Shown one piece after another: positions 9,201 to 26,283 of a DNA stretch of 28,154 bases. Every line of letters starts with the position of its first letter. The first letter of the stretch is position 1. Under the pieces are notes generated by a model that was given only the letters and a program-made list of their open reading frames with translations, made no database searches and was not told where the DNA came from. The DNA lies in IMG/VR virus record IMGVR_UViG_3300028608_000064, positions 1 through 28,154 of that record. The stretch is one strand, 5' to 3'. Made by a program: the position numbers and the translations under genes. This stretch comes from a virus.

Positions 9201-11153
9201 GAAGAAGATGGAAGCCATCTGGGACTGGAAGGGCTCCGCCAGCATCAGCTTGGCGATGAACTCCATGTTCCGGCGGAAGTCGTCCAGGCCGTTGTTGCCG
9301 AGGGCGCCGCTGGCGCGGGCCAGTGCCTTGAACTGGTCGATGATCGCACCGCCGGCGAGCCACATGTCCTTGAGCGAGTTGACGCCGTCTTCGATCCATG
9401 AGGTGATGTCGCCGAGCTTGCTGGCTTCCGCGATCCAGTCGCGGAACCGCGTCGAGACGTCGAGGATCCACTGGCCGAAGCGGGGGAAGAACTCCGACCC
9501 GCGGAGGCCCAGGATGTTGAAGGCTTCGATCAGCGGGGCTGCCGCCTCGCTGCCGCGCAGGAAGAGGACGTCGAGGTTCTCGAACATCTTCTTCAGGTCG
9601 CCCGAAATGGCGATGGTATTGAAGGCCTTGACGATATTGTCGAAGCCCTTGCCGGCGCTCCCAGCGGCCTTCTCCAGGCCTTCCGTGAACTGCGGGATAA
9701 CTTTGTCCACGAACTCCTGGAGCGAGGCTCCAGCGGTCTCCCAGAACGCCTGCTGGACGGGCTTCTGCATGGTCTTCCAGGTGTCATCCAGGACGCGGAC
9801 GGCTTCGCGCGCGGCCGGGGCCAGGGCGGCCAGGGCCTTCTTGTCGCCGTTGAACGCCTTCTTCATGTTGTCGAAGGCCATCGTGTTGATGACCGCTGCT
9901 GCGGCGACTGCCGAGATCAGGGCCGGGGCCATGGCCAGGAGGCCGACGACCTCGAACATGCCGTCGCCCACGGAGAGGGCCGCGGTGGTCATGTAGGCGA
10001 GGGTGTCGGCGATGCCGCCGATGGCGGCGCCCCAGCCGGCTCCCTTGAGCGCGATGGTGTCGAACTTGGTGATGATGGACTCGAGCCCGCGGCCGGCGGC
10101 CTGCAGGGTGTTGACGCCCGCCAGGGAGCGGAGCAGACCCTCGGCGATGATCATCGACTTCTGATCGACCACGACATGGAACGGCACGCGCCGGGCGCGT
10201 GAGGCGAACTGCAGCTGCCGTGCCACCATCTCCAGGCCGGAGGTGTGGACGGGCAGCTCGACGTCGCGGTCCTTGTCCTCGACCTCGTCCTTGATCATCT
10301 CGTCGATGCGGCGCAGCTCGGTGCGCAGCGCCTCCTCGTTGAAGGCGACCGACAGGGTCTTGGAGTTCAGCTCCGAGAGCATCTCGCGCAGCTTGTCGCG
10401 CGTGGACTTCAGGGACTCCTGGTCGTCGTAGTTGACCTTGAGTTCCACCGGCTCCTTGGCCAGGGCGTCCTGCAGCATCCTGCGGGCGGTCTTGAGCGAC
10501 TTCTGGTCGAGCGTGACGTCGAACTCGACCTGCCGGATCTTGTCCAGCTCATTGTTGACCTGATCCAGCGCCGCCTGGATGGAGGCCCGGTTGTTGGTGT
10601 AGGAGACGGTGACGGCGGCCTTGCTGAAGCCCCCGTTGAGCCGCTTGGTGAACTTGCGCTCCATGCGGTCCAGCGAGGCGTCGTCAGTGTCGAAGGAGAC
10701 TTCCTTCTCCAGCTTCTGCCGGCGGATCTCAGCGATCTTGTCGAGGACAGCCTGGTAGCCCTTTTTGTCCTGGACGTAGGTCATCTCGACCTTGGCGCCC
10801 TTCTTGATCTCGTCCAGCTCGGCCTGGGCCCTGGCGATTCCAGCGTCGTCGAGGGTGACCTCGATCTCGGTGGCCGACATGTTCTTGATGGCCTTGTCCA
10901 GCTGCTGCTGGGCCCGGCGCACCGAGTCGTAGTCGAGGCCGACCTTCAGGGTCATACCCTTGTCTTCGGCTGCCTTCTTGGCCTTCTGGACGTCGGTGAC
11001 CAGCTCGGTCGTGTCGCCCTTGACCTTGACCTTGACCGCGGTTTCGTAGCCCCGCAGCTCGTCCGAGACCTGGTCCTGGGTTTCGCGCCGGAAGCCTTTT
11101 GCATTGGGCCGTACCTTGATGGCTACGGCGCCGACAAGCTTGATGTCAGCCAA
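6276..11153 (-). CDS. Tape measure protein
   Basis: At 1625 residues this is the longest gene and lies directly after the tail assembly chaperones. It sets tail length and probably leaves the tail during DNA entry. At about 1.5 angstroms per residue it predicts a tail of roughly 240 nm. Residues ~38-346 form about 11 repeats of a short beta-strand plus amphipathic helix (see the repeat entry). Residues ~368-425 are strongly hydrophobic (AIGGIADTLAYM, then VVGLLAMAPALISAVAAAAV), and a second apolar patch is PGLILGGIGVAMSVIGG. The C-terminal third is alternating helix. I see no M23, NlpC/P60 or transglycosylase motif inside it. The start is TTG at 11153 in the overlap CTTGGCTGA with the upstream gene. 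No other early start exists in frame, so translation is probably coupled. Confidence 0.96.
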   Translation of the reverse strand: MADIKLVGAVAIKVRPNAKGFRRETQDQVSDELRGYETAVKVKVKGDTTELVTDVQKAKKAAEDKGMTLKVGLDYDSVRRAQQQLDKAIKNMSATEIEVTLDDAGIARAQAELDEIKKGAKVEMTYVQDKKGYQAVLDKIAEIRRQKLEKEVSFDTDDASLDRMERKFTKRLNGGFSKAAVTVSYTNNRASIQAALDQVNNELDKIRQVEFDVTLDQKSLKTARRMLQDALAKEPVELKVNYDDQESLKSTRDKLREMLSELNSKTLSVAFNEEALRTELRRIDEMIKDEVEDKDRDVELPVHTSGLEMVARQLQFASRARRVPFHVVVDQKSMIIAEGLLRSLAGVNTLQAAGRGLESIITKFDTIALKGAGWGAAIGGIADTLAYMTTAALSVGDGMFEVVGLLAMAPALISAVAAAAVINTMAFDNMKKAFNGDKKALAALAPAAREAVRVLDDTWKTMQKPVQQAFWETAGASLQEFVDKVIPQFTEGLEKAAGSAGKGFDNIVKAFNTIAISGDLKKMFENLDVLFLRGSEAAAPLIEAFNILGLRGSEFFPRFGQWILDVSTRFRDWIAEASKLGDITSWIEDGVNSLKDMWLAGGAIIDQFKALARASGALGNNGLDDFRRNMEFIAKLMLAEPFQSQMASIFFGARRGATELNKGVKDLAGTFMDASAWTSQLLTLLGRFGGDVLSGVARTFSNLTFQTGMLEALRGMSDMVNTMNPAFDRLGSLLGNVGKISASVFRGLGPVFNTVLGILDDSVGKITDNLAKISPSLLTLTNNLLNVARGPISLLTDMLNAFLTVLNALPGPLRDGTVAFLTFLLLRNQFGAFASGLSRMWTSLTTSTVAGVAAQKAATAGVATAVDGVNRNLVIMADGSVRQMSRFGQIMQTGMASARAHINSFDANTIVGRMSAAATGVAGFVGKINSSLALIGGVPGLILGGIGVAMSVIGGNAADAAANIDRLRETLDKASGAATSETLTAISSKVSEIDKAGDAWANFWRGVVNNSKAGNETLEQLGISIGEVSRIIAGSRAEYDSFVGSLKTIGNAGNLKELVEFMKTGGISGDVSKRPMAPGDEFATNIAKLKQLEEQAKAVKALGLNPSLFEGPNAINTQSIQNLTNKMDEQRLAFELAQRGQAIYAQTLGTTVERSKEVASIVQIIGDVSADAAGKIDAINKSLEILNKNGVSDQEAKIARVEGIEAAVENAKAIAESIKASRASIFDANGLISEQSKAGRDLFKIMKESADNVKIQAQATYDAAIKNGDTAAVAAQKAVDVVRSGDADLQRIADAAGLTVAELRAQWGKFFGSEWDLKATFSANTDNFLAAQAEAKRLGVEFNESEFTAWLLANPDPANVTTEQVKAHMQEYAATTFKAKLDALPASAQANIADVVGRADAFARGDYTAVLEGFNATSPAVQSAIGTIMRLTNPIWQAQLTALLNQGSYAAVEWQLIQLTRPRSAIVNVTYADAGRDAAMASRAPHQAKGSILDRFARGMNGFNPQYKYFANGGIEDHRASIFRPSSVLRFFAEPETGGEAYIPLAVSKRPRSVSILSEVAKKFGYELTRSKNYANGDAGGHTVPTRTSNTNVTVGTINTVDPERAVKKLQAMQRDALAVAGIDA
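10116..11042 (-). repeat. Beta-alpha tandem repeats in the tape measure N-terminus
   Basis: About 11 degenerate protein units of ~28 residues follow the pattern of alternating hydrophobics (for example VEFDVTLDQKSL, VELKVNYDDQESL, TEIEVTLDDAGI) and then an amphipathic helix ending in LDxxxx. The repeat is visible in protein, not as DNA identity, so it is old. Unit boundaries are by eye. Confidence 0.6.
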
Positions 11154-11963
11154 GGGGGAATCCCATCTTTCTGAAGAAGTCGAAGTTGTCCGTGAACTCC
11201 TGCTCGGACTTCTTCTTTGCCTTCGGGTCGTTGCGCCACGAGGCGGGGCCGATGGTCTCGAAGTCCGGCGGTTTGTCCCAGTGACCGGAGACAGCGGTGT
11301 TGAGGTTGAGCGCGTTGATGGCCATCGCCTGGAGGCGGCGATCCAAGGTCCAAACGCGGTGGTCCATGATGGCTTCCTGGCGCGGGTCGGCTTTTGCGGA
11401 CTCCGACTCGTCGCTCGGGTGATCTACGGCCATGGCGGCGTAGTAGCGGGAGCCCTCGGGGAGGTTGCGCAGCATGGCGAGAATGACGGGGATAGAAGAA
11501 AAGACCTCGCCAGCAATGAAGCTGACGAGGTCCAGTCCCCAGAACTCCTTGAGATCCAGGTAGATCTCCTCGCCGTAGGCGTCGATTAGCTCTCCGAGGG
11601 CGAGGCTCCCCCCGGGTCGGTCACTTCGGAGTACTGCTCGAAGAGGAACAGCCACATGCCGAGGTCATCCATGCCGGCCCACTTGGCGAGCTTGGCGAAG
11701 TCACCGCGGGTGCGTTCGGCCGCATGCAGGGCGTCGGAGAGGACGCTGATCATCAGTTCGGCCTGATCGACCTCGTGGTCTTCAGGAAGTGCCTCCAGGC
11801 GCTTCTTCAGGTCGAGCGCGTCGGCCACGGCCTTGCGCTTCTCCTTGGGCAGCCGGAGGACGGGCTTGAAGCCGAGGATCCTTCCGTCCTCGAGTTCAAT
11901 TTCAAAGTCGGGGTACTTGGCGTCTGCGCCCTTGCGCAGATCGTCGAGTGAAAGTGCGGACAT
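11146..11963 (-). CDS. Tail assembly chaperone, frameshift fusion (G-T type)
   Basis: The long form of the tail assembly chaperone, made when ribosomes slip -1 near the end of the short form. The downstream frame (open up to 11655, stop 11146) has no convincing start of its own. It becomes readable by slipping at GGGGGGA (11607-11613). The predicted fusion is about 272 residues: 119 from the first frame, then continuing SLALGELIDAY and EEIYLDLKEFWGLDLVSF. Gene pairs of this kind between major tail protein and tape measure are near-universal in siphoviruses, and the two products hold the tape measure in a soluble state while the tube assembles. The C-terminal region is charged and ends 8 bases inside the tape-measure start. 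Confidence 0.9.
11586..11963 (-). CDS. Tail assembly chaperone, short form (G type)
   Basis: A 125-residue acidic, mostly helical protein between the major tail protein and the tape measure. It contains a short beta region (YPDFEIELEDGRILGFKPVL) followed by helices (KEKRKAVADALDLKKRLEAL and later segments) and ends TDPGGASPSES. It is the unshifted product, with the frameshift site six codons before its stop. ATG at 11963 has AAAAGGAG seven bases upstream, and this leader (AAAGGAGTCCGC) is nearly identical to the lysin leader at 806-817. It is expected to bind the tape measure during tail assembly. Confidence 0.9.
   Translation of the reverse strand: MSALSLDDLRKGADAKYPDFEIELEDGRILGFKPVLRLPKEKRKAVADALDLKKRLEALPEDHEVDQAELMISVLSDALHAAERTRGDFAKLAKWAGMDDLGMWLFLFEQYSEVTDPGGASPSES
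11607..11613 (-). promoter_or_regulatory. Programmed -1 frameshift site
   Basis: On the minus strand the codons CCG GGG GGA form the heptamer G GGG GGA, matching the X XXY YYZ slippery pattern. Slipping back one base re-pairs both tRNAs at G-rich codons and moves translation into the downstream frame, whose next codon is AGC. The direction matches the one needed to join the two open frames. Confidence 0.88.
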
Positions 11964-12048: not shown

Positions 12049-12822
12049 CTACGGAGCTGCGATGGTCACCGAGGGATCGGTGGTGTAGCCCGTGCCGCCG
12101 TTGGTGACGTTCACTGCCGTCACGACGCCGTCCTGGACCACTGCGGTCGCAGCGGCACCCGTGCCGCCACCACCCGAGAAGGTCACAGCCGGAGCGGTGC
12201 TGTAGCCGGCGCCGCCGGAGACGACGGTCACCGCGGACACCGTGTTGCCGGTGCGGGAGGCCGTGGCCGTAGCGGTCGAGAGGATGACCGCCGGCGGGAT
12301 CCACTCAAACGGCCAGTCGTTCGAGCCGTGGTTGAGCGGGGTGACCTTCAGCGAGAGCTGGGCCAGGTTCTCCGTATCGGCGACAGCGAGGTCGTCGGAG
12401 CGGATGATCGAGACCTTGGGGGCGTAGATGCCCGCGGTGCTCTGGCCGTCATAGAAGACGACGAGCCAGGCAACCTCGGTCGGGACCGGGTTGGAGGGGA
12501 CGCGCACGCGGCCGTTGACAACGGCGGCGTTCGAGCCGTAGTAGAGCTTCAGGCCCGGAGCATCGAACTGGAGCAGGTTCATGATGAACGCCTCAGTGCG
12601 AGCGGCCACGGTCTGCCGCAGAGTCTTGTTCTGCAGCGAGCGAAGCGTGGTGGTTTCGCCACCTTCCGAGCTTGCGGACAGGATGTCCTGCACGGAGGTG
12701 TGGCCGACCTCGGTCCACGGCCCGGCCGGGTTGCGGAGGTCAGTGGGGATTGCAGTGCCGACAGGCGCCGTGTAGAAGTGGCCGGTTCCGACCTTCAGCA
12801 CGGCAGTGTTGTCGAGTGCCAT
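12049..12822 (-). CDS. Major tail protein
   Basis: A 257-residue tail-tube subunit, placed between the neck genes and the tail assembly chaperones. The first ~180 residues are the tube domain (MALDNTAVLKVGTGHFYTAP, then VGHTSVQDILSASSEGGETTTL). Residues ~186-257 are a separate Gly/Thr-rich beta domain (TVSAVTVVSGGAGYSTAPAV, SGGGGTGAAATAVV, GGTGYTTDPSVTIAAP) that probably projects from the tube surface. The same domain ends the major capsid protein, at about 61% identity by hand alignment. ATG at 12822 follows TAGGAG at good spacing. Two hairpins lie between it and the upstream gene. Confidence 0.92.
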   Translation of the reverse strand: MALDNTAVLKVGTGHFYTAPVGTAIPTDLRNPAGPWTEVGHTSVQDILSASSEGGETTTLRSLQNKTLRQTVAARTEAFIMNLLQFDAPGLKLYYGSNAAVVNGRVRVPSNPVPTEVAWLVVFYDGQSTAGIYAPKVSIIRSDDLAVADTENLAQLSLKVTPLNHGSNDWPFEWIPPAVILSTATATASRTGNTVSAVTVVSGGAGYSTAPAVTFSGGGGTGAAATAVVQDGVVTAVNVTNGGTGYTTDPSVTIAAP

Positions 12823-14618: not shown

Positions 14619-15968
14619 CTACGGGGCCGCGACGGTAACGGTCGGGTTCGAGGTGTAGCCGGTGCCCGCAGCCGTGACGGAGATCGCGGTGACCTGGCCG
14701 TTGGCGATGGTCGCAACAGCCGTTGCGCCAGTGCCGCCGCCGCCGGAGATGGTGACCGTCGGGGTGGAGGTGTAGCCGAAGCCCTGAGCGGTGACAGTGA
14801 TCGCGGAGACCGTGCTGCCGGAGCGGGTAGCCGTAGCCGTAGCAGCAGCCTTGGCGCCCGGGTAGTTGCCGCCGAGCGGGAAGGGCTCGCCCTGAGCAAC
14901 CGGGCCGGTGATCGGCTGCAGGTTGTAGGCCTTGGCCAGGAAGGAGCTGGCGGAACCGCCGGGGGTCGTGGTGGAGCCGTCGCCGGGCTTCTTTTCCACA
15001 GCAGAGCTGGTGTTGAGGACCAGCTTCACGCCACGGACGAAGTACTCGTCGGTGGAGACGATTTCGCGGCTGGAGCCGTCGAAGACCGCGAGGCGGTCCT
15101 TGACGTAGCTGTAGCCGGCGTAGCAGTCGAAGACGCTGCGGTCGGTCAGGTACGCGGTGTCGTAGTCCATGAGCCAGCGCAGAGCCCAGCCGCCGGCGGA
15201 AGCCGTCGAGCCGAAGGGCACGGACTGGGGGATGGAGGGAACGCCGGTGAAGACCAGGAAGCCCGAGGAGGCGTACATGTAGGCCTCGTCAGCGGGGATC
15301 TGGGTGCTGGACACGAACTGCACGCCGGCGATCACGCCGAGCTTGGCCGAGGTCAGCGCGTCGTCGCCGCGGGTCTGATCCTTCAGGAAGCGGTTGGACT
15401 TGAGGATCTGTTCCTCGAAGTCCACGCCGCACACGCAGTAGAGCGTGTCGTTCGGGGTGCGCATCAGGCGGAGGGCCTTCTTGGCGTCCACGACGGCGTT
15501 GTAGAACCGATCCTGGTTGGCAGGGTCGGTGGCCGCGACCTTGATGACGCGCTCGTAAGGCGCCTTCAGGATCTGGTTGAGCACGCCGTGCTCCAGGTAG
15601 GAGGCAATCGAGGAGGTCTGAGCCTCGATGATGTCGCCCCAGCCGTCCTGGAAGTCCCAGTCGCGCTGTTCGTCCGTCATCTTGATGGCGGAGTACGGAC
15701 GGTCAGCCGAGATGGTCACGGTCACGACCGTTTCCTGGTACTGGTCCGTGATGATGGGCTGGCTGCGGTCGTTGCGCGCGGTGTAGGTACGCACGGGGAC
15801 GGTGCCCTTGACGCGCTGGCTGATGGTATCGCCCGAGGACTTGAAGAAGGTCTTCATGTCGCTGCGCTTGGTTACCGTGTTGGAGATCGACAGCTGGTCG
15901 CTCAGCGCAGAAACTGCAGACTGGACGAGCACCGCCGGCTTCACCTTCAGGTGAGGGGTGTAAGACAT
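14619..15968 (-). CDS. Major capsid protein, P22 coat-like, with an extra C-terminal domain
   Basis: A 449-residue coat subunit. Residues 1 to ~340 look like the P22-type coat family (opening MSYTPHLKVKPAVLVQSAVS, then RVKGTVPVRTYTARNDRSQP and SAIKMTDEQRDWDFQDGW). It follows a scaffold gene directly, as in P22-type assembly, and no protease is evident. Residues ~345-377 are a Gly/Ser/Pro linker region, and residues 378-449 are a beta domain (TVTAQGFGYTSTPTVTISGG, then TAAGTGYTSNPTVTVAAP) shared with the major tail protein. That domain probably decorates the capsid surface. ATG at 15968 follows GAAAGGGAT. A strong terminator lies just upstream. Confidence 0.93.
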   Translation of the reverse strand: MSYTPHLKVKPAVLVQSAVSALSDQLSISNTVTKRSDMKTFFKSSGDTISQRVKGTVPVRTYTARNDRSQPIITDQYQETVVTVTISADRPYSAIKMTDEQRDWDFQDGWGDIIEAQTSSIASYLEHGVLNQILKAPYERVIKVAATDPANQDRFYNAVVDAKKALRLMRTPNDTLYCVCGVDFEEQILKSNRFLKDQTRGDDALTSAKLGVIAGVQFVSSTQIPADEAYMYASSGFLVFTGVPSIPQSVPFGSTASAGGWALRWLMDYDTAYLTDRSVFDCYAGYSYVKDRLAVFDGSSREIVSTDEYFVRGVKLVLNTSSAVEKKPGDGSTTTPGGSASSFLAKAYNLQPITGPVAQGEPFPLGGNYPGAKAAATATATRSGSTVSAITVTAQGFGYTSTPTVTISGGGGTGATAVATIANGQVTAISVTAAGTGYTSNPTVTVAAP

Positions 15969-16552: not shown

Positions 16553-17662
16553 CTATTTGGTCTTGCGCGCCCCGTGGGGCGCTGAGGGATTTGCCTTGCG
16601 CTGGGCGTAGATCCAGCGGCGCCAGGCTTTGCGTGCTTCGAGGCCGTAATAGCCCGCGGTGACCTCCGGCCACTTCTCCTGGAAGTAGCGGTTCATCTCG
16701 GGCAGCTCCGACTGCCGCGTGAAGCGGACAATCGGGAAGCAGTGGCAGTTGATGTGGACCTTCTCGACGTCGTCGCCCACGAAGGCGGTCTTCTCGCTCT
16801 TGTAGACGAATCCACGCGAGGCGAGCATGGCGCAGAATGCGCACGGGTCGGAACTGGTGCCACGGGCGACGGCCTTGACGAGCTTGTCGTCCTGGATCGC
16901 CCGGTTGATGACCTCCCGGCCGCCTTCCATCCCGACGGCGTCCACGGTTCCGGATCCGATGGAGCCGGCTGCTGCGTGAGCAACTTCGATCTGGGTGATG
17001 GCCAGATCCGGGGTCAGATCTTCGTCTGCCCGGATGGTCTTGACGGCGTCGGTCGAGTGGTCCACTGCCTGCTTCCTGAGCAGCCTGCGGTACGCTTCCT
17101 CGACCTCCTCGTAGCTCATGGCCTCTGGCCACTCGTACTCGTCAATCTGAATCGGCCGGATGTCATCCTGGCCTTCCACATCCATGAGGTTCTGGATGAG
17201 GGGGTCCACCGGCACGTCTGCGATCCGGACTGACCGGGCGTTCTCGATTCCCTGGGCGTCCTGCGCCCTTAGGGTCTCCTCGAACCACCGGATGTCGGGG
17301 TCGTCGCTTCGCGTGCGGGTGGAGGGGAGGGATGCGACGTCAAGGGCGGCATCGCGGAAGTTCTTCCGGAGTTCGCCCAGCGTTACGTCGCCGGTGGAGC
17401 CTTCCGGCACACCCAATGTGCGCCCGGTCTCCAGGGCCCGTGCGAGCTGGTAGTAGCTAATGGCCAGCTGCCGGGACATCTTGCGGATCGCCGTGATGGC
17501 ACGGAGCGACTTCAGCAGCCACTCCGCGGCCGTGCCCGCGGCGTTCAGGGAGGAAACGGTTTCCCACTCAGCGAGTGCGAGGAACGCCGCCGCCAGGCCC
17601 AGGCGGGCCTGTGCGGCCTGGTGCAGTTCCTCTAGCGCCAGGACCTCACTTGCGGTTGCCAT
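16553..17662 (-). CDS. MuF-like minor capsid protein
   Basis: A 369-residue protein after the portal and before the scaffold, the usual place of MuF-like (Mu gpF, SPP1 gp7) head proteins, which sit inside the capsid near the portal. The C-terminal part has the family's Cys/His pattern: DPCAFCAML (C274, C277) and KVHINCHCFPIV (H303, C306, H307, C308), which may bind metal. Residues 1-80 are helical and may contact the portal. No toxin or ADP-ribosyltransferase domain is appended at the C-terminus, which ends in a basic tail (RKANPSAPHGARKTK). The ATG at 17662 lies 17 bases inside the portal gene, so translation is coupled. Confidence 0.88.
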   Translation of the reverse strand: MATASEVLALEELHQAAQARLGLAAAFLALAEWETVSSLNAAGTAAEWLLKSLRAITAIRKMSRQLAISYYQLARALETGRTLGVPEGSTGDVTLGELRKNFRDAALDVASLPSTRTRSDDPDIRWFEETLRAQDAQGIENARSVRIADVPVDPLIQNLMDVEGQDDIRPIQIDEYEWPEAMSYEEVEEAYRRLLRKQAVDHSTDAVKTIRADEDLTPDLAITQIEVAHAAAGSIGSGTVDAVGMEGGREVINRAIQDDKLVKAVARGTSSDPCAFCAMLASRGFVYKSEKTAFVGDDVEKVHINCHCFPIVRFTRQSELPEMNRYFQEKWPEVTAGYYGLEARKAWRRWIYAQRKANPSAPHGARKTK

Positions 17663-19190
17663 CTACGGGCTTCTTCTGTGCGGCGTTGGCGTTGGACTTG
17701 ATCTGGGCGCCGGCGGCCGTGGCCTGCATCATGCGCGGATCGCGTTCCATGTCGTCCTGGACCTGCTCCTCGTGGAGCGTCTCCCAGTCGTCGAGCATGC
17801 CGTTGGTCACGCCCGGGATCATGGGCCAGAGGCCCTTGCGGGGAACGTCGAGCATCTGGGCGGCCTTGCCGAGCGCGTCCATCATGACCGCGACGGTCTT
17901 GGTGGTCATATCGCGCCACCGGACCTCGCCGCCGTAGGACTGTGCGCCGTCTGCGTCGCCGGCGGCCAGGGCCGCGGTGCGGAACAGCTCCTCGTGGGAC
18001 TCGCCCAGCGAGATATGCAGGGCGTCGATCCAACGGATGAACTGCGCTTCCGCGGCGGCCCATGCCTCAGCGGACAGGTTGGCCAGGTTGGAGATGGAAG
18101 CCAGGGGAGGGAACTGGGAGATCGTGGTGAAGTTACGGGCGGCCTGCTCCTCCTGGCGGAGGTAGCCGTCCAGCGGGGTCTCGTCCAGCTGGCCGAACTT
18201 GGTCTGCGGGTCGTCCGAGACCAGCATCTGGGCCTGGGAGACCTCGATGGGGACCGGGATCGGGTCGCCGGCCTCGTCGAGGACCACGTTGCCTTCCTCA
18301 TCCCGCTTGAAGTTCGGGATCAGGCCGGCCGCGTAGCGGACCTTGAAGGCGCCGAAATCGGCGGTCACATTGGTCGAGAACGTGGCCTGGTTGATGCGGT
18401 CCTGCAGCGGGATGGCCGGCTTGACGACGCCGCGGGTGCGGCCCTCGTCGTCGATGAAGCAGGTGTACCGGATCACCGGGCACTGGCCGAGGCCGTGCTT
18501 GAACGGCTTGCCCTTGACGACGAAGCGGCCCTCGAAGGTGTAGCTCATCTCCCAGCGGTAGACGTCGTCGTAGAAGACGGCGAGACCGGGGATCTGCTCA
18601 CTGCGCGGGTAGCTCATGATCGTCAGGACGTGGCTGGGCCGGATGTCGTTGACCGGATCCCTGAAGTACGCCACGGTGTTCCTGGTGGACAGGATGTCGA
18701 AGCGGATCTTCTTCGGGTCGAGGTTGTTCACGACGACGAAGGCGTGGCCGTAGGTCAGGACCGAGCGGTAGATCACGGCCTGGCGGCCGTCCATCCGGTT
18801 CTGCTGCCACAGGGTCCACTCGGTGGTCTGCGTCTCGGAGGTCTCCTGGGCCTTGTCCTTCTTGCCCTTTTTCTCCAGCTTGCCGTGGGACCGCCGGCGG
18901 TAGTCGTCCACAAAGGACATCTGCGCCGGCAGGTTCACGAGCAGCGGTATCCAGTTGGCAATGGAGCGGTGCTGCAGGTCCCTGATCTGCGGAGTGGCGT
19001 TCCTCGGGGCGTAGGGCAGGAGCTGCTTGCCTTCGAGGTAGTCGTTGCAGAGATCGTAATCGGTACGATCATGCCGAAGCGTGAGCATCATGCTCTCGAC
19101 GAGCTTCAGATCGAACTTTCCGGCAGCGACCTGCCGGTTTGCCAGGACGTGGTCTTCCTGCCCAGTGGCAAACTCGTGCATGGTAGCCAA
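17646..19190 (-). CDS. Portal protein, SPP1 gp6-type
   Basis: A 514-residue portal subunit, which would form the dodecameric ring at the capsid vertex for DNA entry and exit. Features typical of the SPP1 gp6-type family are the N-terminal LRHDRTDYDLCNDYLEGKQL, the segment PLLVNLPAQMSFVDDYRRRS, the central WEMSYTFEGRFVVKG and IPLQDRINQATFSTNVTADF, and a helical C-terminal crown ending in a Gln/Lys-rich tail. The TTG at 19190 has AGGAG six bases upstream. An ATG three codons later (19181) is 15 bases from that site, so TTG is the better start, though the difference is only three residues. It lies between TerL and the MuF-like gene as expected. Confidence 0.93.
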   Translation of the reverse strand: MATMHEFATGQEDHVLANRQVAAGKFDLKLVESMMLTLRHDRTDYDLCNDYLEGKQLLPYAPRNATPQIRDLQHRSIANWIPLLVNLPAQMSFVDDYRRRSHGKLEKKGKKDKAQETSETQTTEWTLWQQNRMDGRQAVIYRSVLTYGHAFVVVNNLDPKKIRFDILSTRNTVAYFRDPVNDIRPSHVLTIMSYPRSEQIPGLAVFYDDVYRWEMSYTFEGRFVVKGKPFKHGLGQCPVIRYTCFIDDEGRTRGVVKPAIPLQDRINQATFSTNVTADFGAFKVRYAAGLIPNFKRDEEGNVVLDEAGDPIPVPIEVSQAQMLVSDDPQTKFGQLDETPLDGYLRQEEQAARNFTTISQFPPLASISNLANLSAEAWAAAEAQFIRWIDALHISLGESHEELFRTAALAAGDADGAQSYGGEVRWRDMTTKTVAVMMDALGKAAQMLDVPRKGLWPMIPGVTNGMLDDWETLHEEQVQDDMERDPRMMQATAAGAQIKSNANAAQKKPVDGNRK

Positions 19191-19203: not shown

Positions 19204-20589
19204 TCAGAACTGGTAGAGCTTCCGGGTGTATTCCTTGGGAAGCGTCTTGCCGGACTCGATGAACTTCGTCAGTGCCATGTAGGCCAGGAAGCCGGCAGCG
19301 AAAGCGTCGATCTTGCGGAATGAGGTCTCCGACTCCTTGCCGAAGTACAGGCCGAAGGAGTTGGTGCGCCGCTTGGTGTTGAGGACGTGGACGCGCATGA
19401 GCTTGTCGCCGTTCTGCTGCAGCCGGCCGTCCACGATGGAGCCCACAAAGGCCTCCGTCGTCTGGGCGATGATCTGCTTGTTGGCGCGCATGTCGAAGCC
19501 GACCGTGGAGCGCGCGCTGGCGCGCACCAGCAGCTGCTCGCGGTACTGTTCGGCCCAGGCATCCACGTAGGAGTCCCAGTAGGCGACGTCGGCGAAGAAC
19601 GCCAGCACCTTGTAGGTCTGGAACGCCAGGTGGACCTCTGAATCGACCTGCGCCTCGGGCACATGCCACTCGAGCGCGGGGTCGGGGTTCTGCCAGATGG
19701 CCAGCGGGACGATGAGCTTGTCCTCGATCCGGATCGCCACCAGGGCGGTGGCGTCGTCGGTCTTGGAGCCGTCGAAGCCCAGGACGATATGGTCGCCGGG
19801 CCTGAGGTCGCGCTTGTCTCCCCAGCAGCCGGGCTTGAGGATGCCATCCCACTGACCCACGGTGATGAGGGAGTCTCCAGCCGAGACGATCTGGTTGAAC
19901 CACATCCGCCTCTTGGAGGCGACGGTCTTGGAACCATCCTGGATTTCCTGGACGATGTCCTCGACGTCGAGCCAGACCGCGTCGCCGCGGATCGTCTCCA
20001 CGATGTACGGCGCCCAGTCTTTGGTCAGCGGGGCATCCGGATGGGCCTCCAGGCTGTCGTAAAGCCAGCCGGAGTCCTCGGCCAGGCCGGCCCAGACCCT
20101 TTCCTGCTCCTCGCGGATTCGCTGGGCCACGCTATCTTCACCAGGCTCGTAGGCGTTGGTGATGCAGAGCAGCCGGCCCTTGACCTTGGTGAGGTTGTTG
20201 GTGATGACGTTCATGAACTGCGGGCCGCGCTGGCCCGGGGTCCAGTGGTGCGTCTCGTTGGCGATGCAGAAGGTGACGCGGCCACCTTCCGCGGAGCGGA
20301 AGTTCGCACTCATGGTGCGGAGCTTCTGCTTGCCGCCGTTCGCGTAGATGATCTCCTTCTGGACATCCATGTTGAAGGCGATGCGGGTCCGCGTGGGAAT
20401 GAGGCCGGGGAACACGTCGCGGGTGTTCTCGGTCTGGGATTCCGATACCGCTGTGACCTGCACGTAAGCGTCGGGGTGCGGCTTGCCGACGGGCTCGCCA
20501 TCCTCTCCCCAGTGGGAGAACTGGCTGGGCCCGATCAGTTCGACAATGCTCAGCACGGCGGCCAGGGGGTCCTTACCCCTGGCTACCAC
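19204..20589 (-). CDS. Terminase large subunit, main part (ATPase remainder plus nuclease)
   Basis: A 461-residue segment with most of the packaging motor. Just after the start is GKDPLAAVLSIVEL, the second half of a Walker A motif. A Walker B-like FCIANETHHW follows (N111-E112, Asn at the usual Asp position), then the coupling segment CITNAYEPGEDS, then an RNase H-like nuclease domain from VLGFDGSKTDDATALVA (D273, D278/D279) to KIDAFAAGFLAYMAL (D428). The first ~105 residues of the enzyme are in a different frame at 20583-20900. The GTG at 20589 overlaps the upstream TAG as GTGGTAG, so reinitiation is possible. See the finding on the 8-base insertion. Alone this segment lacks the start of the P-loop. 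Confidence 0.9.
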   Translation of the reverse strand: MVARGKDPLAAVLSIVELIGPSQFSHWGEDGEPVGKPHPDAYVQVTAVSESQTENTRDVFPGLIPTRTRIAFNMDVQKEIIYANGGKQKLRTMSANFRSAEGGRVTFCIANETHHWTPGQRGPQFMNVITNNLTKVKGRLLCITNAYEPGEDSVAQRIREEQERVWAGLAEDSGWLYDSLEAHPDAPLTKDWAPYIVETIRGDAVWLDVEDIVQEIQDGSKTVASKRRMWFNQIVSAGDSLITVGQWDGILKPGCWGDKRDLRPGDHIVLGFDGSKTDDATALVAIRIEDKLIVPLAIWQNPDPALEWHVPEAQVDSEVHLAFQTYKVLAFFADVAYWDSYVDAWAEQYREQLLVRASARSTVGFDMRANKQIIAQTTEAFVGSIVDGRLQQNGDKLMRVHVLNTKRRTNSFGLYFGKESETSFRKIDAFAAGFLAYMALTKFIESGKTLPKEYTRKLYQF

Positions 20590-20900
20590 CCCTTCATGCG
20601 CTGGAGGACGGCCTTGCGGTATCGGAACTTGCCTCGGTGGTCGATGGCGTAGAACCAGAGAATGAACCGCGCCTGTTCAGGCGTTGCCATCCACGGCCGG
20701 CCGTCGGAGAAGGTCAGCCATTCGGCGACCCAGCCAAGGATTTCCCAGCCGAGCGTGTGCTCGGGGAGAAGCCAATGGCCGTTCTCGTCCTTCTGCCACG
20801 TCGGGCCGATAAAGCTCGGGGGAAACAGCTCTCGCGCTGCTTCAGCTGACGGGGTAATGAGCGCCAGCTCTTCCTGCGTAATTGAAGGGATTGTGATCAC
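20583..20900 (-). CDS. Terminase large subunit, N-terminal fragment in another frame
   Basis: A 105-residue ORF that matches the N-terminal domain of actinophage-type large terminases: the WEILGWVAEWLTF helix, WMATPEQARFILWFYAID, and then FRYRKAVLQRMKGW followed by TAG. In these enzymes KGW is normally followed at once by GK[S/D]P to complete Walker A, and GKDP occurs here eight bases downstream in the -1 frame. The start is GTG at 20900, the only plausible start in frame, because a TGA lies six codons upstream. That GTG is at the edge of CCCCC-AA-GGGGG, which could form a small hairpin over the start region. The gene follows the small subunit after 62 non-coding bases in which I see no promoter. 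Confidence 0.85.
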   Translation of the reverse strand: MITIPSITQEELALITPSAEAARELFPPSFIGPTWQKDENGHWLLPEHTLGWEILGWVAEWLTFSDGRPWMATPEQARFILWFYAIDHRGKFRYRKAVLQRMKGW

Positions 20901-20962: not shown

Positions 20963-21394
20963 TTAGGTCTCCTGGACCCCCAGCTGCTTCCGGTAGTTGC
21001 TAATGGCCGTCACGGATGCGGGAGTCTCAAGCTCCTTGGGATCTTCGAGTTCGATCCGCATTCGCCGGCGCTCGCCTTCGGTCACTCCGAGGGCGGTCAT
21101 GCCCTGCAGGATGGTGGCGAGCATCATCGCTGAGGGGCGTTTGTAGTATTCGGTGAGGGCGTCGCAGAGGATGCGCGCCGTCTCATAGTCCGAGAGTTCG
21201 TAGTAGTCACGCATCCCGGAGCGGGAGAGCGACTTGTACCACTGCTTGGCCCGCGGGGCCCAGTTGGGATCTGCCGGCGGGACTCGGAAGGAGACGCGCT
21301 CGCCCTTGCTGAGCGGGACGCCGCCCTCGTTCTCGGGCTTGTTGCGCCGCGTGCGCTCCTCGGAACGCTTCGGCATGGGGCCGTGCTGTCCCAT
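20963..21394 (-). CDS. Terminase small subunit (predicted)
   Basis: A 143-residue basic helical protein directly before the large terminase. It has a basic N-terminus (MPKRSEERTRRNKPEN) and a central region PNWAPRAKQWYKSLSRSG, then YYELSDYETARILCDALTEY, the pattern seen in small terminase subunits of actinophages: a Trp/Tyr helix followed by a helix listing the D-x-E-x-A-R core. It would recognise the packaging site and recruit the large subunit. Start ATG at 21394 has AAAGGA eight bases upstream. The internal ATG at residue 7 lacks a ribosome site. The HNH gene ends two bases upstream. Confidence 0.82.
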   Translation of the reverse strand: MGQHGPMPKRSEERTRRNKPENEGGVPLSKGERVSFRVPPADPNWAPRAKQWYKSLSRSGMRDYYELSDYETARILCDALTEYYKRPSAMMLATILQGMTALGVTEGERRRMRIELEDPKELETPASVTAISNYRKQLGVQET

Positions 21395-24063: not shown

Positions 24064-26283
24064 CTACTGGCGAGATCCGCTGTCGGTGTTCGCCATGTTG
24101 CCCGAGGTCGGAACGAAGTTCCACGAGTACGAGCCGTTGTCGTTCAGGCTCATGCGCAGGTGGCCCCACGAATCCGAGAACCGCTTCTCGATGTATGAAG
24201 GGTTGTCGAGGAATCCGCGCAGCGAGATGCCGCCAGTGGAAACCTGGAACTGCTGCATGCCATCGGCGACGCACTGGTCCGCGTTGTTCACGGGGCAGCT
24301 GCGCTCGTAGTTGTGCTGGCTGCCCGAGAGCAGGACCTTGACCCGGTTCTTCCAGAACACGTCGATCCACGGCTTGATTTCCGTCGAGCGCGTGTGCGAG
24401 CTGGTCTGCGAAGTGAAGTACGGATCATGCACGACCACGGCCAGGTGCTTGCCGGCAGCCTTGGCGGCTGCGAGGTTCGCATCCATCTCGGCGGTCATCG
24501 CATTGGCCCGGGCCACGTCGTAGCGCCATGCGTTGGACTGGGCGAACAGGATGTGCCAGTTGCCCTTGTCGATGGAGTACCATTCCTGGTTGGTCTGGAA
24601 CGTGCCAGCGGGATTCGGGCCCTGACGGGTCGGATCGGTGCTGGTTGCACTCTTTACGGTGTTGACACACCCGCCGTCCATGTAGTCATCCAGGTCCGTG
24701 TTCCGGCCCGGCTGGTAGTCATGGTTGGCCGCGGCAACCCAGTACGTCTTGTCCTTGAACGGTCCACCGTTCACGTCCCACTTGCTGTAGTGGTCGTTGG
24801 CAGGGTTCGACGTGCCTGACAGGCCGCAGTGGCCGATGCTGTACTGGAAGTCACCGAGACCGATGAAGTTGTCCAGTTCGCCCGAGTTGAGTGCCGCCTT
24901 GATGCTTGCAGCGTTCTTGCCCCAGGTGCCGTTCGGATCGGTGTGTCCGCTCGGGTTCATGTCGCCAACCGCGGCGAAGTCGAACGAGCCGCCAGTGGGA
25001 GGCGGCGGGGGCGGGGTGCCCGTACCTGCGGGGTACACGCGGACCCAGTCCACCCGCATTTCGGCGGCGCCGTCAGCAGTGGCATCGGGGAACCAGTCGA
25101 GCTGCAGGGTCTGGTGCATCGAGCCCGGGGGCTGGTGCGTCGGGTCGTTGTCCTCGAACCACTTCACGCCGTCGATGTAGCCGGTCATGCCGGCGGGGGA
25201 CCAGTCAACCGCGTAGTTGTGGAACTGGGTCACATCGACCGCCTTGCTGGCCGAGGTCCGGAGGTCGGAGCAGGAGTAGTGGTTGAAGAAATGCACGCTG
25301 GTGAAGCTGCCCGTGGTTTCGGCGTAGTCGATCTCGCCATCACAGGGCCAGCTCTCGGAGTCAGGCCACAGGATCGACACCATGTGGTACTCGTCGTCAC
25401 CGGAGGCCGCGATGCGGGCCTCCCAACGGCCGTACTTCTGGTTGGCGAACTTGGCGCTCATCCCGGCGGTGGTGCCGTCGGCCGTGCCGTTCATGACCAT
25501 CTTGGAGCCGTCCACGGAGACCTGCTGCGGGCTGCGCACGCCGTTGCCGGCGTGTCCCGCGCTGTTGTAGACGTTCCACTTGGCCGCGTCCGGAGCGCCG
25601 GTGTAGTTGAACTCATCGCCGGCTACGGGAGTTCCCCAGCCGAGCGTTGCAGCGGCCGTGGTGCCGTCGTTTGCCGGCGGGGGCGGAGGCGGGGTGCCCG
25701 CGTCCGGTTCGGTGACCACAACGAGCTGCGGAGCGGTGGACGCGCCACCTTCCTTGGACTTGAAGCCAACCCACTTCAGGGCGTTGGTCCCAAGCTTGAA
25801 GTTGGTGTAACCGCCGTCCGAGCCGACCCAGTCGGTCACGTCCCATTCGACCCAGGCGCCGGTGGCGAAATTGCCCTGCTTGGCAAGCCAGGTGCCCGCC
25901 GCGGGGGCGTTGTTCCAGGTGGCGCCGGCCTCGGTCCAGGTGCCTACGGTGCCGTAGACGTCAACGAACTCGGTGGCCGTGGTGGACGCTTCCGAATACG
26001 CACGGAGCTTTGCTGAGACAATGTGCTCGCCCGCAGGAATCGTCGCGTTGAACCGGAGCAGGCCGTTGCGCCAGATATTGGCGCGGCCCTCGGTAGACCA
26101 TCGAACGCTGGTGCCGAAGTTCTCCGTCGGCCTGTCGGCCTGGACGTAGGTGTCGGCCGTGGGTGCAAACGTCAGCGTCTGTGCTGCGCTCGCGGGAGTA
26201 ATGCTAAAAGGAGCGGCCGTGAAGGTCGCAGTTGCCAAGACGACGGCCCCCAGTACCGCCGTCACCTTAGCAGGTAGTCTCAT
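24064..26283 (-). CDS. Secreted three-domain protein: DNRLRE-like, GH16, metallophosphoesterase
   Basis: A 739-residue protein with a Sec signal peptide (residues 1-33; basic start, AVLGAVVLATATFTAA core, cleavage near ASA-AQ). Residues ~38-192 resemble DNRLRE/CBM-like domains (TADTYVQADRPTENFGTS, then LLRFNATIPAGEHIVSAKLR). After a Pro6 linker, residues ~215-418 form a GH16 beta-jelly-roll with the catalytic motif E317-I-D319-Y-A-E322 intact. After a second Pro6 linker, residues ~434-725 form a calcineurin-like phosphoesterase with D441, GD at 477-478, NHD at 520-522, H619 and SGSQHNYER. Its usual GHxH reads GSQH, so one metal ligand (S655) may be lost. GH16 enzymes cut beta-1,3/1,4-glucans or galactans. 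ATG at 26283 follows GAAAGG. A host-like secreted enzyme in a structural operon could be a virion depolymerase or an acquired cargo gene. Confidence 0.88.
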   Translation of the reverse strand: MRLPAKVTAVLGAVVLATATFTAAPFSITPASAAQTLTFAPTADTYVQADRPTENFGTSVRWSTEGRANIWRNGLLRFNATIPAGEHIVSAKLRAYSEASTTATEFVDVYGTVGTWTEAGATWNNAPAAGTWLAKQGNFATGAWVEWDVTDWVGSDGGYTNFKLGTNALKWVGFKSKEGGASTAPQLVVVTEPDAGTPPPPPPANDGTTAAATLGWGTPVAGDEFNYTGAPDAAKWNVYNSAGHAGNGVRSPQQVSVDGSKMVMNGTADGTTAGMSAKFANQKYGRWEARIAASGDDEYHMVSILWPDSESWPCDGEIDYAETTGSFTSVHFFNHYSCSDLRTSASKAVDVTQFHNYAVDWSPAGMTGYIDGVKWFEDNDPTHQPPGSMHQTLQLDWFPDATADGAAEMRVDWVRVYPAGTGTPPPPPPTGGSFDFAAVGDMNPSGHTDPNGTWGKNAASIKAALNSGELDNFIGLGDFQYSIGHCGLSGTSNPANDHYSKWDVNGGPFKDKTYWVAAANHDYQPGRNTDLDDYMDGGCVNTVKSATSTDPTRQGPNPAGTFQTNQEWYSIDKGNWHILFAQSNAWRYDVARANAMTAEMDANLAAAKAAGKHLAVVVHDPYFTSQTSSHTRSTEIKPWIDVFWKNRVKVLLSGSQHNYERSCPVNNADQCVADGMQQFQVSTGGISLRGFLDNPSYIEKRFSDSWGHLRMSLNDNGSYSWNFVPTSGNMANTDSGSRQ

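Follow-up and report, generated by a model that had tools for sequence, protein, structure and literature searches.

The interrupted terminase gene

The sequence analyzed here (the window) is a 28,154-base IMG/VR virus record, IMGVR_UViG_3300028608_000064, in which the large subunit of the terminase (TerL) is encoded on the minus strand by two disjoint open reading frames (ORFs). The first ORF ends with RMKGW followed by TAG, and the second picks up with GKDPLAA in a different frame; a possible start codon of the latter, GTG, overlaps the stop of the former as GTGGTAG. The junction on this strand reads ATG AAG GGG TGG TAG CC AGG GGT AAG GAC CCC, where the 8-base TAGCCAGG separates KGW from GKDP within the motif that we take to be Walker A. 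In a profile search, the two halves match TerL (phrog_9) in separate stretches of the profile. The junction sequence and both listed ORFs thus confirm the initial annotation in its central claim, that an 8-base insertion splits TerL at the P-loop, and its expectation of an unbroken frame in relatives lacking these bases is borne out by genes reading KGWGKDP, such as that of locus L005 (559 amino acids, C part 86% identical). The features of the junction are listed in Table 1.

Table 1. Features of the interrupted TerL gene and of its immediate neighbors in the window
Feature	Position	Strand	Remarks
N-terminal ORF of TerL	20583..20900	-	105 amino acids from GTG, start codon uncertain; phrog_9, E 2e-16
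C-terminal ORF of TerL	19204..20589	-	461 amino acids if from the overlapping GTG; phrog_9, E 7.8e-48
8-base insert TAGCCAGG	20578..20585	-	missing in uninterrupted relatives
Putative take-off codon UGG	20586..20588	-	Trp of KGW
UAG stop	20583..20585	-	adjoins the putative take-off codon; read from sequence
Putative landing codon AGG	20578..20580	-	agrees with UGG at two of its three bases
GGU, first codon read past the gap	20575..20577	-	Gly of GKDP, read from sequence; under bypassing, reading would resume at 20577
Predicted hairpin	20555..20589	-	UGG-UAG in the 5' arm, 7-base loop 20569-20575; no covariation support
Terminase small subunit	20963..21394	-	context; PF25673, E 8.2e-42
Portal protein	17646..19190	-	context; profile matches

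Conservation of the insert

The 22-base junction string of the window recurs in two other contigs. When the TerL halves were scanned for separately and the junctions then read, inserts of the form TAGYYAGG were found in 11 distinct TerL genes, the window included, in three versions, TAGCCAGG, TAGCTAGG and TAGTCAGG. The same clade contains two genes with different 10-base inserts (L011 and L049) and three without an insert (L005, L010 and L012). Among the 13 carriers of this clade (78 pairs), the median ratio of nonsynonymous to synonymous substitution rates (dN/dS) is 0.136 for the C part, at a median dS of 1.00, and 0.156 for the N part, compared with 0.138 and 0.104, respectively, in two usable pairs of intact relatives; to judge from these ratios, both halves of TerL are under purifying selection. 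No variation is seen in six of the 8 columns of the insert, compared with 5 of 46 fourfold degenerate sites (sites, not events, being counted). Given that the insert is retained at a dS of about 1 and that selection acts on the gene as it does on intact ones, the gene appears to be neither dead nor misassembled, which contradicts the suggestion, raised at the outset, that the genome or its assembly is simply defective at this point.

Recurrence of inserts at the same point

Combining pattern scans with fetched relatives, we identified at least 44 distinct TerL genes that are interrupted exactly here, by inserts of 4-15 nucleotides with 26 different sequences and with lengths that cover 0, 1 and 2 modulo 3. 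The number of genes is a lower bound because the patterns fix codons (TGAAGGGNTGG ... GGNAARGAYCC); it was obtained from the 47 distinct carriers in the junction table after removal of L128, L130 and L132, which are not TerL. The IMG/VR scan for inserts of 4-14 bases yielded 47 stretches, 43 of them TerL (L115, L128, L130 and L132 were dropped), and the scan for 15-45 bases yielded 8, of which one is TerL and seven were dropped; the scan for 0-3 bases returned at least 120 rows, with TerL uninterrupted in every match listed. The N{0,14} pattern had no matches in 396 Actinomycetota genomes, and one scan of genome contigs produced a single relative, which is intact.

The carrier label requires 24 changes on a tree that comprises 148 rows (41 carriers), and at least 17 of these changes are forced by starred branches, pointing to repeated gain, loss or transfer of the insert. 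C parts shorter than 300 amino acids, including those of the carriers phiHau3, L147 and GreenWeasel, were excluded from this tree, and the intact rows were thinned from 151 to 107. In pairs such as the phage Triumph and locus L191, the C-part proteins are nearly identical and the inserts differ. Two carriers show additional peculiarities: L114 has, besides 11 inserted bases at the Walker A point, a C part of 907 codons with an intein-like enlargement, and L129, in which TerL is already interrupted, has an extra in-frame TGA at C-part codon 328 (VVGAF*DPAHWQ), which could be an error, decay or a third site.

Four carriers are cultured Streptomyces phages: BroPlease, GreenWeasel and Triumph, with GGCTTACCCC at the point, and phiHau3, with GGCTTACTCC. 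In the first three, the annotation shows a hypothetical protein and, after it, more fragments named terminase, and in phiHau3 the terminase is merely a misc_feature; the interruption accounts for annotators splitting this essential gene or labeling its first part hypothetical. A phrog_9 search of BroPlease, GreenWeasel and Triumph detected nothing beyond the TerL fragments, and the same search found one intact gene in Attoomi. Pablito and Caelum were considered as further cases of split TerL because of their names, and each proved to have a single coding sequence. Among the matches listed (best or spread rows), there is no cultured carrier of the stop-codon type.

Codons at the junction and candidate mechanisms

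The last codon ahead of the gap is a glycine codon GGN in 19 of the 26 inserts and UGG in the other 7, including the three forms found in the window's group. The next in-frame codon is a stop or UUA in 21 of 26 (UAG 9, UUA 6, UGA 5, UAA 1), compared with about 3% expected by chance in random sequence of the window's composition; in the remaining five it is AGA, AGG, CCA, CCA and GAU. Since neither rows nor inserts are independent of one another, the argument is based on these counts and not on binomial probabilities. Across 11 genes of the window (6083 codons), UUA does not occur and AGA, CCA, AGG and GAU are used 1, 3, 24 and 70 times, respectively, figures that bear on codon usage in the window only.

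The initial annotation had proposed four readings of the junction without choosing among them, namely a -1 slip, reinitiation at the overlapping GTG, ribosomal bypassing of the 8 bases, and a defective genome or assembly, and it is partly supported. Bypassing with two adjacent bases matched at the landing position fits 25 of the 26 inserts. A single frameshift fits 18, with both directions needed; in-frame readthrough fits 6, among which L286 would need two stops to be read; reinitiation likewise fits 6; and two inserts, those of L011 and L136, permit bypassing alone. Given that one mechanism covers nearly all inserts, while the others need several, and that cultured, particle-making phages carry such inserts, we favor the interpretation that the TerL of the window is made from its two disjoint ORFs through short-range ribosome bypassing, with a probability, estimated from the comparison of inserts, of about 0.7.

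Under this interpretation, the ribosome would read to the UGG of KGW and pause as UAG enters the A site, perhaps aided by a hairpin holding UGG-UAG. In a fraction of cases, the peptidyl-tRNA-Trp would then release, the mRNA would shift by eight bases, and the tRNA would re-pair at AGG, so that decoding would restart at GGU-AAG-GAC and yield a normal KGWGKDP loop; other ribosomes would terminate, giving the 105-residue fragment.

For all 11 window-type rows, folding predicts, in whole or in part, a hairpin whose 5' arm contains UGG and UAG. Their folds have z scores from -1.27 to -3.87 (L007 folds differently), whereas most other insert types are near 0, and in ten distinct 53-nucleotide rows 94% of the pair cells are formed, against 29-64% when the structure is slid along the sequence. 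The hairpin at the window junction is a tentative proposal. The residues upstream of the gap are common to uninterrupted TerL, so that their conservation is uninformative on a nascent-peptide signal. A tRNA scan of 45 loci detected tRNA-Trp next to TerL solely in Hau3 and L134; being confined to two loci, this gene is not a general helper. The two copies, both tRNA-Trp(cca) in loci with UUA-type inserts, lie at 1200-1270 of L290 (phiHau3, upstream of TerL) and at 2930-3000 of L134.

Several observations weigh against bypassing or against parts of this scheme. The insert of L067, the sole one that bypassing fails to explain, offers no landing match. In none of the 7 UGG-type inserts does the landing codon match in full, and in the window AGG, which shares two of three bases with UGG, is not a cognate codon for tRNA-Trp. 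The landing glycine of the GGN inserts is a conserved residue, so that its match shows only that the insert adds an extra glycine codon. Every one of the 11 window-type rows has an RUG in the C frame that overlaps the stop, a feature expected under reinitiation. The hairpin receives no backing from a covariation test of the ten 53-nucleotide rows, which revealed no two-sided change and in which shuffled sequences did equally well, and a 141-nucleotide fold is not unusual (z -0.32). Finally, window-type inserts come so far from uncultured contigs only, the nearest cultured TerL being less than 60% identical to those of the window clade.

As an alternative, ribosomes would terminate at UAG and reinitiate at the overlapping C-frame GUG or AUG, producing two chains that assemble as a split TerL. 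The same scheme could draw on the codon preceding UGG, which is GGR in 15 of 15 UGG-type rows, compared with 23 of 120 intact rows listed; in the 11 window-type rows, the GGR excess could be caused either by R-U pairing in the hairpin or by the overlapping start codon. This scheme, conceivable for the window itself, cannot serve all of its sister variants: two members of its clade, L011 and L049, lack a C-frame start codon within 45 bases. Moreover, the P-loop would be cut between two chains. Together with the small share of inserts open to reinitiation, these considerations make it an improbable explanation.

A shift to the -1 frame at GGG/GGA, giving a single protein whose P-loop would gain three residues (in the window, GVVARGKD), is feasible in the window type, where a tRNA-Gly reading GGR might slip back by one base and pair again with GGG. 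By inspection, an X XXY YYZ slippery heptamer is absent from the window site (G AAG GGG U, within AAG GGG UGG), the resulting protein would have an enlarged loop where uninterrupted relatives keep a fixed length, and the sister variant L011, like L136, disallows a single shift; the slip originally suggested is conceivable for the window in isolation and is unlikely to be how these genes are expressed.

An origin of the insert as a remnant of DNA break repair or of an element that has been excised, with the terminase dead or supplied from elsewhere, would agree with its variable length, with the 2-3 flanking bases that inserts often duplicate, and with the frequent switches of the carrier label on the tree. 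We consider this highly improbable, given that the C-part dN/dS equals that of intact genes, that the insert is more conserved than synonymous sites, that the N frame runs in register into a stop, UUA or a rare codon, and that cultured phages are among the carriers. Skipping of the bases in RNA, through polymerase slippage or processing and without involvement of the ribosome, would tolerate any insert length, as observed, and leaves the in-register stop, UUA or rare codon after the last motif codon unexplained; we consider it very unlikely.

A second site before Walker B

Five loci are interrupted just before the presumed Walker B motif, in addition to or in place of the Walker A site. The junction is CGG TCT [TTAACGG] TCC ACG in phiHau3 and GreenWeasel, CGT TCT [TTAG] TCC ACG in L147, and CGA [TTATC] TGA GTC in L020 and L022 (L021 being the same as L020). 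In all of them, UUA follows the presumed take-off codon, and the presumed landing codon of L020 and L022, UGA, has two bases in common with CGA. No interruption is present at this site in BroPlease or Yosif. The interruptions lie at 2541-2630 in L020/L021 and at 162-251 in L022; the loci concerned also include L147, L159 and L290 (phiHau3).

From these patterns, we tentatively propose, at somewhat less than even odds, that TerL genes of actinophages harbor ribosome-hop cassettes that are recurrently gained and lost at two fixed points, one following the KGW of Walker A and the other immediately preceding Walker B, and that a codon slow in the A site of the host (UUA, a stop or some rare sense codon) would tie synthesis of the motor to the state of release factors or rare tRNAs, UUA being one instance.

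Relation to known cases of bypassing

Bypassing at this point of TerL has been proposed before, reportedly in the first place, and probably, by Smith et al. in 2013. A passage in Atkins et al. (2016; PMC5009743) calls it likely for the terminases of phage Hau3 of Streptomyces and of prophage Strep C.1, stresses UUA there, remarks on the KGWG that precedes it, and, because of UUA, counts the case of the Streptomyces phages as one of the best candidates for regulatory bypassing. The window resembles these genes, as far as that passage describes them, in the position directly after KGW(G), the disjoint frames and the slow A-site codon. It differs from the Hau3 type, with its UUA and glycine codons for take-off and landing, in having UAG, a putative UGG take-off codon, an imperfect AGG landing codon and a predicted hairpin, and in belonging to an uncultured clade; these features appear to be what is new here. 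Lacking UUA, the window is not classed with the Hau3/Strep C.1 type, and as a UAG variant in another clade it indicates that UUA is not essential. Our searches of the openly licensed literature turned up no description of the stop-codon type of TerL insert, and a word search of the accessible text of papers citing the actinophage study found no passage on bypassing.

According to the relevant sections of PMC11194080 and PMC5009743, the take-off codon of T4 gene 60 is likewise followed by UAG, and both lie inside a take-off stem-loop (PMC11194080); in the window such a stem-loop is predicted, without covariation. Unlike T4 gene 60, with its 50-nucleotide gap and matched GGA codons, the window has a gap of 8 nucleotides and UGG/AGG, and since the landing codon is not identical to the take-off codon, we regard the window as possibly working like T4 gene 60 and do not assign it to that type. 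Mitochondria of Magnusiomyces capitatus, as portrayed in parts of PMC5009743, tolerate many short inserts by bypassing, at times with imperfect codon matches, as seems to be the case here; there, 81 sites are spread over most genes of one organelle, whereas here two points of one gene are affected in many phages. The stop-hops of Weiss et al. (1987), as described in the same source, cross a stop between nearby matched codons in synthetic constructs (cf. GGU UGA GGU in L150); the TerL inserts, in contrast, are natural and conserved.

Known natural cases of bypassing are few, and the 26 natural inserts at one codon boundary, in which stops and other codons replace UUA, turn a single suggestion into a comparative set, whose evolved variants allow separate tests of the take-off codon, the A-site codon, the gap length, the landing codon and the hairpin.

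Other features of the window

A tRNA scan of the window detected no tRNA gene, and an Rfam scan of the window gave no match. The neighboring ORFs tested (small subunit, portal, protease, capsid, tape measure and tail) have ordinary profile matches. On the minus strand, two overlapping ORFs for tail assembly chaperones (11146-11963) form the usual frameshift pair. The major capsid protein (14619-15968, minus) and the major tail protein (12049-12822, minus) both have C-terminal extensions that match virion decoration or Ig-like families of other phages. Beside the packaging genes, an ORF of 739 amino acids (24064-26283, minus) combines CBM96 and glycosyl hydrolase 16 domains.
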